From: an uncultured Ruminococcus sp.
Lineage (GTDB): Bacteria; Bacillota; Clostridia; Monoglobales; Monoglobaceae
Length of the DNA: 37,534 nt
Direction of reading: 5' to 3'
NCBI GenBank assembly: GCA_902777435.1
Contig: CACYTW010000003.1
Location: 1-37,534 of the forward strand
Shown here one piece after another: positions 20,415 to 32,551 of this stretch. The notes below the pieces were generated by a model. That model was not told the origin of the DNA, did no database searches, and saw nothing but the letters and a program-made list of their open reading frames with translations. Positions within the stretch are counted from its first letter, which is position 1. Every line of letters starts with the position of its first letter. A program made the position numbers and the translations under genes.

Positions 20415-21470
20415 TTATGCTAAAAAATCATCGAATATATTATTGGTGTCCAATGGTCCGGGGCAAGCTTCGGGATGGAACTGCACACTTTGTATATCAA
20501 CTGTTTTACCCTTTATGCCCTCACAGGTTCCGTCATTTACATTTATATATGAAACCTCTAACTCCTCGGGCAGACCGTCCAAAATATAGTTATGATTCTG
20601 AGAAGTAATGGAAACACGTCCTGTTTCAAGATTTTTAACAGGCTGATTTGCACCGTGATGGCCAAACTTTAACTTCTTTGTTTTACAGCCCATAGCCAAG
20701 CCTATAACAAGATGTCCCATACATACGCCCCTTACGGGATATTTGCCTATCAGTTGTTTAACTGTTTCAACTGTTTCGGGTATGTCCTCAGGGTCGCCAG
20801 GTCCGTTTGAAATCATAACCAAATCGGGGTTTTCCTCTATAATTCTGCCCGCCGACGTATTATAAGGGAACACGGTTATCTTACAGCCTCTCTCCTTAAG
20901 AGAACGCAGTATTCCCGCCTTAACACCTGCATCAATAAATGCCACGTGCTTGCCTTTGCCGTCTATTGTATAAATTTCCTTGGCGGAAACCCTCTTTACA
21001 ACGTCAGAGTTATCGAGGCTGTCAAATCTTGCACTTAAACCTCTGTCAGAGATTGTTCCGACATCGGTTGTAATGATACCGCGCATACAGCCCGCATCTC
21101 TTATAATTCTGGTGAGCGCCCTCGTATCAATACCCTCTAAGCCCAAAACTCTGTTCTGACGCAAAAAGCCGTCGAGGTCCATCTCTGTTCTGAAGTTGTT
21201 GGGATAATCACACTTTTCACGCACTATCAATGCGGTAAGAGCCGGCTTGTCCGCTTCCATATCCTCAAGATTAATTCCGTAGTTGCCGATAAGCGGATAT
21301 GTAAGGACTACCATCTGTCCGCAGAAGGACGGGTCTGTAATCGCCTCCTGATAGCCTGTCATAGATGTGGAAAACACAACCTCGCCCACTACATCGTGAA
21401 CATATCCAAAAGCTGTTCCTGTAAATCTTATTCCGTTTTCAAGAATAAGCTCTGCCGGTTTTGACTGCAT
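20415..21470 (-). CDS. carA: Carbamoyl-phosphate synthase small (glutaminase) subunit
   Basis: Class I glutamine amidotransferase subunit that hydrolyses glutamine and channels ammonia to CarB. Visible: the N-terminal CPSase domain (FGYVHDVVGEVVFSTSMTGYQEA, DPSFCGQMVVLTYPLIGNYG), the nucleophile Cys in RGVCMGH, and the His-Glu pair in VQFHPEACPGP. The ATG at 21470 follows AAGGAG at proper spacing; a longer frame begins 17 codons upstream within the leader. Length is about 351 residues. Two glutamine-pocket positions deviate: GHQ is GHL, and NHG is NHN. It lies first in carAB, directly behind an attenuator. Confidence 0.96.
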   Translation of the reverse strand: MQSKPAELILENGIRFTGTAFGYVHDVVGEVVFSTSMTGYQEAITDPSFCGQMVVLTYPLIGNYGINLEDMEADKPALTALIVREKCDYPNNFRTEMDLDGFLRQNRVLGLEGIDTRALTRIIRDAGCMRGIITTDVGTISDRGLSARFDSLDNSDVVKRVSAKEIYTIDGKGKHVAFIDAGVKAGILRSLKERGCKITVFPYNTSAGRIIEENPDLVMISNGPGDPEDIPETVETVKQLIGKYPVRGVCMGHLVIGLAMGCKTKKLKFGHHGANQPVKNLETGRVSITSQNHNYILDGLPEELEVSYINVNDGTCEGIKGKTVDIQSVQFHPEACPGPLDTNNIFDDFLA

Positions 21471-21500
21471 AAAATCACTCCTTATAAGAAATTGATATAG

Positions 21501-21540
21501 GCAAAAATAAAGGGCTGTCAAGCAAAAAACTTAACGCCCT
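21501..21540 (-). terminator. Intrinsic terminator in the carAB leader (attenuator)
   Basis: The minus-strand RNA forms AGGGCGUUAAG / CUUGAC-A-GCCCU, an 11-bp stem with one bulged A and loop UUUUUUG, followed at once by UUUAUUUUU. It begins 1 nt after the stop codon of the leader ORF and ends about 30 nt before carA, so it must be read through for carAB expression. Confidence 0.88.
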
Positions 21541-21541
21541 G

Positions 21542-21643
21542 TTATTTTAATTCAAAAAATACTTCACCCTTGCAATAGAACGAAGAAGCAATTGAAAAAT
21601 CATAAATGGCAATACCTTTGTGATTAACTATATTTGGTGTCAT
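21542..21643 (-). CDS. carAB leader peptide (33 residues)
   Basis: A short ORF between the car promoter and the attenuator. It has a strong ribosome site (GGAAAGGAG, 7 nt from ATG), begins MTPNIVNHKG and ends GEVFFELK. It has no arginine codons, so classical arginine-codon stalling is unlikely. Much of the second half is pyrimidine-rich at RNA level (UAU GAU UUU UCA..., UCU UCG UUC UAU UGC, UAUUUUUUG). Its stop codon abuts the terminator stem, so a ribosome finishing the ORF would cover the stem's left arm. This mirrors the geometry of the E. coli pyrBI leader peptide. Function as a regulatory leader is inference from layout; the ORF itself is plain. Confidence 0.75.
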   Translation of the reverse strand: MTPNIVNHKGIAIYDFSIASSFYCKGEVFFELK

Positions 21644-21680
21644 TTTTTTGCTCCTTTCCCGCACTATTCATTATCAATTT

Positions 21681-21709
21681 ATTTTATCATTTTTTACGAA
21701 CTTAGTCAA
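21681..21709 (-). promoter_or_regulatory. Promoter of the carAB operon
   Basis: On the minus strand TTGACT (21704-21709), 17-bp spacer, TAAAAT (21681-21686). The predicted start near 21674 gives a leader of about 205 nt containing the leader ORF and attenuator. Confidence 0.85.
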
Positions 21710-31621: not shown

Positions 31622-32551
31622 ATGAGTCTTGAACATTTTATAAGTATACACGATATAACTGTTGATGAATTTCATCATCTTATCGACCTGGGTCTTAAAT
31701 TAAAAAAAGAGAAAAAACAGGGTATTCCCCATCACATTTTAAAGGGTAAGACCCTGGCTATGATTTTCACAAAATCTTCAACCCGAACAAGAGTTTCCTT
31801 TGAAACAGGAATGTATCAGCTTGGCGGCTTTCCTATGTTCTTAAGCTCCAACGACATACAGCTTGGCAGAGGGGAGAGCATATATGATACAGCAAATGTC
31901 CTCAGCCGTTTTGTTGACGGAATAATGATAAGAACCTATGACCATCAGGACGTTTTGGACCTTGCTAAATACGGAACAGTTCCCGTTATCAACGGTCTTA
32001 CCGACCTTCTTCACCCTTGTCAGGTTATGGCTGACCTTATGACAGTTTATGAGCACAAGGGCAAGTTAGAGGGCTTAAAGCTCGCCTATATCGGTGACGG
32101 AAACAATATGACCCATTCACTGCTTTACGGCTGTGCAAAGGCAGGTATGGACATCTCTGTTGCAACACCTAAAAACTATGAACCGGATGCAGAAATCGTT
32201 GCAGGTGCCAAAGAAGATGCAAAGCAGACAGGCAGTAATATTGTTGTAACCTATGACCCTGTTGAAGCAATTTCAGGCGCAGATGTTGTCTGCACGGACA
32301 CTTGGGTAAGTATGGGACAGGAAGCCGAAAAGGCAGAGAGAATAAAAGTATTCGGCGACTATCAGATAAATGCTGATTTGTTTGCAAAGTCAAAGGACGA
32401 CAGCATATTTATCCATTGCTTGCCTGCATACCGCGGATATGAAGTAACCGAAGATGTTATAGACGGTCCTCGTTCGGTTATATTTGACGAGGCGGAAAAC
32501 AGGCTTCACGCTCAAAAAGCAGTTATGGCTGCCGTTATGGGCGGAGAATAA
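31622..32551 (+). CDS. argF: Ornithine carbamoyltransferase
   Basis: Joins carbamoyl phosphate and ornithine to give citrulline. The 309 residues show the carbamoyl-phosphate motif SSTRTRVSFE, the LLHPCQVMADLMT segment, the ornithine-loop region TDTWVSMGQE, and HCLPAYRG with the catalytic Cys. It lies 53 nt after argD with AAAGGAG as ribosome site. Its carbamoyl phosphate would come from the carAB pair in this same window. The catabolic OTC role (arginine deiminase pathway) is less likely because no arcA/arcC are adjacent. Confidence 0.96.
   Translation: MSLEHFISIHDITVDEFHHLIDLGLKLKKEKKQGIPHHILKGKTLAMIFTKSSTRTRVSFETGMYQLGGFPMFLSSNDIQLGRGESIYDTANVLSRFVDGIMIRTYDHQDVLDLAKYGTVPVINGLTDLLHPCQVMADLMTVYEHKGKLEGLKLAYIGDGNNMTHSLLYGCAKAGMDISVATPKNYEPDAEIVAGAKEDAKQTGSNIVVTYDPVEAISGADVVCTDTWVSMGQEAEKAERIKVFGDYQINADLFAKSKDDSIFIHCLPAYRGYEVTEDVIDGPRSVIFDEAENRLHAQKAVMAAVMGGE

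Follow-up and report, generated by a model that had tools for sequence, protein, structure and literature searches.

A candidate pyrBI-type attenuator with a U-rich leader ORF upstream of carAB in Clostridia

carAB provides the opening step of both pyrimidine and arginine synthesis, and in Bacillota pyrimidines are usually sensed by PyrR. The closest described counterpart of the locus reported here is pyrBI of Escherichia coli, where low UTP slows RNA polymerase on a U-rich template (49% U) and a coupled ribosome prevents the hairpin from forming (PMC10135430). E. coli carAB is without such attenuation, and its promoter P1 is controlled by UTP-sensitive reiterative initiation at a GUUU start (PMC6245113). 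Among Gram-positive bacteria, leader-ORF translation together with polymerase pausing decides on the terminator at tlrB, bmrCD and vmlR of Bacillus subtilis (PMC12288461, PMC9226507). Firmicutes have few regular leader-peptide attenuators (PMC2965389). In the literature searched, subscription reviews excepted, no report of a pyrBI-type leader in this phylum was found. The phylum Bacillota is placed among the bacteria with runaway transcription, whose ribosomes trail the polymerase (PMC13323073, PMC9226507), a condition that works against ribosome coupling unless pausing is long.

Like enterobacterial pyrBI, the clostridial leaders described here place a short U-rich ORF (pyrL in E. coli) immediately 5' of a pyrimidine gene, with the end of the ORF at or past an intrinsic terminator. 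The U-rich codons are comparable (...LPFFFPLITHS... in E. coli pyrL; FPFSFSY and PLFFIFPLIFLFL in clostridial leaders), and in neither case does PyrR appear to take part in control of the leader. They differ from pyrBI in phylum, in the operon controlled (carAB) and in an unrelated peptide, and their stop codon lies at or in the terminator stem, whereas that of pyrL lies beyond it. With the PyrR-dependent pyr attenuators of Bacillota (RF00515) they share a putative pyrimidine-regulated attenuation of transcription ahead of pyr or car genes, but they have neither a PyrR-binding loop nor an Rfam match, and PyrR protein was not found in the window's genome. With tlrB, bmrCD and vmlR they share a leader-ORF attenuator, here a putative one, in a Gram-positive host; those systems, however, respond to drug-stalled ribosomes through alternative RNA folds, whereas the carA leaders have a pyrimidine target and no conserved antiterminator was found in them. 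The proposed control of carAB by UTP recalls E. coli carAB P1, which nevertheless acts at initiation and not at elongation or termination; the start region of the clostridial leader is A-rich.

Leader anatomy and its conservation with carA

The window, that is, the whole stretch of 37,534 nucleotides that was analysed, is part of a draft genome (G000; 1.81 Mb, 83% complete) from the family that contains Monoglobus (Bacillota, Clostridia, Monoglobales). The promoter, Shine-Dalgarno sequence (SD), 33-codon ORF and terminator of the leader all lie on the minus strand 5' of carA (Table 1), with the promoter beginning, on that strand, 22 bases past the end of the preceding gene and carB next downstream of carA, whose ATG is at 21470. 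A preliminary description of this DNA had recognized, within 21470-21709, a promoter, a 33-codon ORF with a strong SD abutting an 11-bp terminator with a U-tract, and the SD of carA; each element is present, the range is correct, and the ORF indeed has several U-rich stretches (39% T overall) and 0 Arg codons. One nucleotide separates the leader TAA from the start of the terminator stem at 21540, and the terminator reads, on the minus strand from 21540 to 21511, AGGGCGTTAAG-TTTTTTG-CTTGAC(A)GCCCT. An Rfam search of the window leader gave no family match. On the same contig, 10 kb from carAB, the window also carries an argF-like gene (31634-32539, plus strand), placed by its score pattern in the ornithine/aspartate carbamoyltransferase family.

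Table 1 Features of the carAB leader region in the window
Feature	Position	Strand	Basis or remark
Sigma-A type promoter of the leader	21681..21709	-	TTGACT-17 nt-TAAAAT, TG before the -10
SD of the leader ORF, AAAGGAG	21651..21657	-	Read from sequence
Leader ORF, 33 codons, MTPNIVNHKGIAIYDFSIASSFYCKGEVFFELK, ATG to TAA	21542..21643	-	Arrangement kept, peptide divergent in relatives
U-rich block in the leader ORF, TTTTTCAATTGCTTCTTCGTTCT	21577..21599	-	U-richness and predicted SD pairing
Second U-run, TTTTTT, about 15-20 nt 5' of the terminator	21554..21559	-	Candidate UTP-sensitive pause, placed by the U-run
Intrinsic terminator hairpin (putative attenuator), 11 bp, one bulged A	21511..21540	-	Sequence; terminator region z-score -4.8
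Attenuator U-tract, TTATTTTTG	21502..21510	-	Read from sequence
SD of carA, AAGGAG	21478..21483	-	Read from sequence
carA, carbamoyl-phosphate synthase small subunit, 351 aa	20415..21470	-	NCBIfam NF009475 and TIGR01368 above cut-off
carB, carbamoyl-phosphate synthase large subunit, 1070 aa	17190..20402	-	NCBIfam NF003671 and TIGR01369 above cut-off

carA loci were gathered by CarA protein searches in the window's family, the class Clostridia, named genomes and a second clostridial family (f16). Leaders were detected by an automatic rule requiring, upstream of carA, an SD and an ORF of 20-60 codons whose stop lies from 30 nt inside to 12 nt before a terminator stem. Within the window's family, all 19 loci that carry the window's carA lineage show this layout. 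In the second family the rule finds it in 31 of 38 loci, or in 34 of 38 once three leaders that it missed but that are plain on inspection (L185, L186 and L223) are added; none of the 10 loci with other carA lineages (about 47% identical) has it. The cultured species Monoglobus pectinilyticus is among the carriers of the leader. The comparison named in the preliminary description, a search upstream of carA in related Clostridia for a conserved short ORF abutting a terminator, thus yielded such an ORF, and the stop-to-terminator spacing is kept: in every one of the 50 detected leaders, the final base of the stop lies no more than 30 nt inside the stem and no more than 6 nt ahead of it. The SD present in all 50 follows from the rule, which requires it. 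A promoter with at least 9 of 12 consensus positions precedes the leader in 49 of the 50 loci, and its distance to the start codon of the leader is, with few exceptions, 28-37 nt; the initially transcribed region is A-rich and often alike (TAAAATAATAAAAATG) in both families.

Counting against the proposed switch, the second family includes four loci without a leader, three of them from genus g30 (L020, L200 and L228), which carry the same carA lineage with no recognizable leader ORF and terminator; in L020 a GC-rich palindrome is inserted 3' of a similar promoter. Within the window's own genus, L030 (genome G001) has a different carA (47% identity) and no leader, which suggests that the switch travels with one carA lineage.

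Chance does not readily produce this arrangement: for 17 divergent leaders, each shuffled 1,000 times with dinucleotide composition preserved, 0.58 SD-preceded ORFs of at least 20 codons with a stop at the terminator were expected in total versus 16 seen. The encoded peptides, by contrast, diverge widely (MTPNIVNHKGIAIYDFSIASSFYCKGEVFFELK in the window, LRFCTIRRLINSCFSFSGVTYFQKQDNY in Monoglobus, MYCVGNYNSIKADKGYSVSPLFLFSFLKTN and MHTGFIYFNAATPVSYRNTVPLCFRFINY in the second family), and the synonymous share of changed codons is 0.23 versus 0.16 under random placement. Judged by these comparisons, the peptide is weakly constrained and the possession of an ORF strongly so, as expected if translation, and not the peptide itself, matters. 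An arrest peptide or small functional protein was rejected on the same ground of weak peptide constraint.

A scan of G022, a single-contig relative (2.0 of 2.76 Mb covered, under a relaxed stem rule because the positive-control terminator has an internal loop), found a leader ORF with a terminator before 7 of 1,434 long ORFs, and within the 2.0 Mb carA is the only gene with a U-rich leader of this kind (T 0.44 versus 0.33 for the next). Conceivably, a small-protein gene with its own terminator could stand before carAB by chance, with carAB expressed by constitutive read-through or from an overlooked promoter, and stop codons near terminators are indeed ordinary in phyla with runaway transcription. 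However, such ORF-terminator pairs are rare elsewhere in G022, and the association with carA holds in two families despite different upstream genes and a freely changing peptide. Moreover, only about 10-20 nt often separate the U-tract from the carA SD, as in Monoglobus, a gap too short for a promoter; in these relatives carAB must therefore be expressed by terminator read-through. We consider this chance arrangement very improbable.

Leader composition and the candidate signal

The leader ORFs contain 40% T, compared with 22% in carA of the same loci, and for the G+C-rich Monoglobus species T fills 43% of third codon positions in the leader versus 13% in carA. In the interval 11-30 nt 5' of the terminator, T content climbs to 0.51-0.53, versus 0.30 at 16 control terminators of the same genomes (Mann-Whitney p=1.8e-4). 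In many Monoglobaceae leaders, the stretch richest in U is found 40-65 nt 5' of the terminator, further upstream than in the second family; that it is often not directly at the terminator counts against a pyrBI-type reading. Most Monoglobaceae leaders contain a GGG-N-UAUUUU element, which the second family lacks. A shared AGGG..A..UAUUUU element (for example, CAAGGGTGAAGTATTTTTTG) about 25-45 nt before the terminator resembles a G-10/T-rich pause signal; it was noted in the window (21573-21554) and in L005, L006, L011, L012, L016, L019 and L032, and is absent from L015, L017, L018 and the second family.

The overrepresented codons are UUY, UCN and UAY (Phe 3.0x, Ser 2.4x, Tyr 2.2x), which raises the question of whether the U-richness is a by-product of a hydrophobic, Phe-rich peptide, in an attenuator that depends on ribosomes and senses a charged tRNA (Arg or aromatic) or a nascent-peptide effector. 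The two- to three-fold enrichment of Phe, Ser and Tyr codons would fit such a device, as would the Arg pairs near the ORF start in single relatives and the fact that carAB also serves arginine synthesis. The leaders nevertheless contain no run of at least three codons for one plausible amino acid (only one III and one GGG). Arg codons, although present in single relatives, show no excess across the leaders (1.09x, the background level) and are missing from the window leader. Poor peptide conservation argues against an arrest peptide, and no conserved antiterminator fold lies beside the terminator in the window's family. Sensing of a signal other than UTP is, on this evidence, quite unlikely. 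Arginine attenuation specifically was rejected on the Arg codon frequency and on RNAalifold predictions for the window's family, which contain no mutually exclusive antiterminator and terminator folds; a conserved riboswitch or antiterminator was rejected likewise, the terminator alone being predicted there.

These features bring the leader back to the pyrBI type of control. The locus has a short SD-bearing leader ORF before a pyrimidine-pathway gene, a U-rich tract shortly upstream of the terminator, and an ORF end at or in the terminator, where a ribosome would block the hairpin. E. coli pyrL, taken as the control, has U-rich FFFP codons followed by a terminator inside the ORF just before pyrB.

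Pairing of the leader SD and the question of PyrR

The leader RNA 5' of the terminator is more structured than its shuffles (mean z -1.7), because the SD region is complementary to a U/C-rich block further downstream in the leader. In the window, GGGAAAGGAGC is complementary to GCUUCUUCGUUC, the latter in the 3' portion of the U-rich block (21589-21577), and in L207 AUAAAGGG is complementary to CCCUUUAU. With one leader per lineage, a leader's own block outperformed blocks swapped in from other species in all but 2 of 20,000 permutations, and shuffled blocks likewise gave poorer SD pairing than the native one (Fisher p about 1e-7), values that relatedness among leaders could inflate. Predicted SD accessibility drops from 0.67 to 0.20 as the block is transcribed, compared with 0.31 for shuffled blocks and 0.52 for carA's own SD; in the window, the predicted unpaired probability falls from 0.80 to 0.04 once the U-rich block has been transcribed. 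Composition alone explains part of this pairing (unpaired probability 0.31 in shuffles, 0.21 observed), and the pairing is not seen in a few leaders (L015, L018 and L221). For the window's family, RNAalifold predicts the terminator and nothing else; for the second family, it adds a helix between the SD and the U/C block. Neither this complementarity nor the occurrence of the leader in a second family formed part of the preliminary description.

In E. coli K-12 pyrL (L197), too, 8 bp including one G-U are possible between the SD (CGGGAGGA) and the U-rich pause block (UCUUCCCG), and predicted SD accessibility falls from 0.89 to 0.00 after the block is transcribed, a drop that for this single sequence is not significant (p=0.27). 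Apparent compensation between L001 and L005 pointed to a different pairing, of GGGU(G/C)AA with the U-tract of the terminator; it was not general and was dropped.

PyrR does not seem to act on these leaders. RF00515 has no match in the window leader or the window genome, the PyrR RNA was found in none of five genomes of the window's genus, and a pattern search for the consensus loop found none in the carA leaders of either family, in agreement with the preliminary description, which had seen no PyrR-type binding loop; on these grounds PyrR control was rejected. The protein was not found in four of five genomes of the window's genus (G000, G001, G003 and G004, drafts of 79-92% completeness), and its absence from the window's own genome is uncertain since that draft is 83% complete. 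PyrR adjoins pyrB in Monoglobus, and 43 of 70 second-family genomes encode it. No attenuator was seen before pyrB in the window genome or in Monoglobus.

Clostridium carA leaders present a related arrangement at the homologous position: a PyrR-binding loop (TTGGTCCTGTGAGGCCAGAAAGGAG) whose 3' side holds the SD of a short ORF that mostly reads into the terminator (7 of 15 by the automatic rule, more by eye; the loci concerned, all upstream of carA, are L047, L049, L050, L053, L056-L059, L190, L191 and L193). PyrR may there act by blocking translation of the carA leader ORF.

An RNA-level switch could likewise decide leader translation in the two families, through an SD-sequestering hairpin or a binding protein (a PyrR of divergent type, NusG-directed pausing or another factor), with UTP read only indirectly. 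It would be in keeping with SD-block pairing above swaps and shuffles, with the position of the Clostridium loop and with the presence of PyrR in many of these genomes. On the other hand, no leader of the two families has the PyrR consensus loop, PyrR is missing from most genomes of the window's genus as detailed above, and so is the pairing from the three leaders already named. NusG of the window genome (L220) reads VRNCRGVTGF, keeping the Asn of what we take to be the pause-motif pair of B. subtilis NusG (Asn and Thr) and carrying Cys instead of Thr, so that its recognition of T-rich pauses is uncertain. We regard a switch of this kind as unlikely.

Proposed mechanism and its implications

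Our analyses suggest that the leader probably attenuates carAB transcription in a ribosome-dependent way and reads UTP supply in the manner of pyrBI. A dedicated promoter, a short ORF with a good SD, a U/C-rich 3' part and a stop at or in the terminator are apparent from sequence and conservation, and the UTP response is one that we infer by analogy with E. coli pyrBI. The UTP-sensed ribosome coupling put forward in the preliminary description is to this extent supported, as far as sequence goes. When UTP is ample, polymerase would cross the U-rich part fast, the terminator would fold and transcription would stop. When UTP is scarce, polymerase would pause at the U-runs, the leading ribosome would catch up to the end of the ORF and there cover the 5' arm of the terminator, and transcription would enter carAB.

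A weaker second step may be envisioned on top of this coupling. Given the SD-block complementarity above swaps and shuffles, fast transcription may also hide the leader's ribosome-binding site, the U/C block pairing with the SD, and slow transcription would conversely give time for ribosome loading. We raise only tentatively the possibility of such a two-step UTP sensor suited to runaway transcription, in which the same block would slow polymerase at low UTP and fold onto the leader SD. If real, SD occlusion would be a gate that aids the UTP sensor where ribosomes normally lag. If this two-step reading is true, the SD position under the PyrR loop in Clostridium would point to one leader-ORF attenuator with two pyrimidine inputs.

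Overall, comparison of the leaders supports pyrBI-type control in a phylum and at an operon that are both new for it, with SD occlusion as a possible extra step, and brings forward dozens of leader ORFs that lack annotation. The layout is meaningful only where a ribosome is able to catch up with the polymerase. If true, ribosome-polymerase coupling would be used at least locally in Clostridia, in a phylum classed as having transcription ahead of translation, and the carAB leader would provide a natural reporter for measuring it. The leader also offers a possible answer to how carAB follows the supply of pyrimidines in lineages whose carAB operon has no PyrR element.
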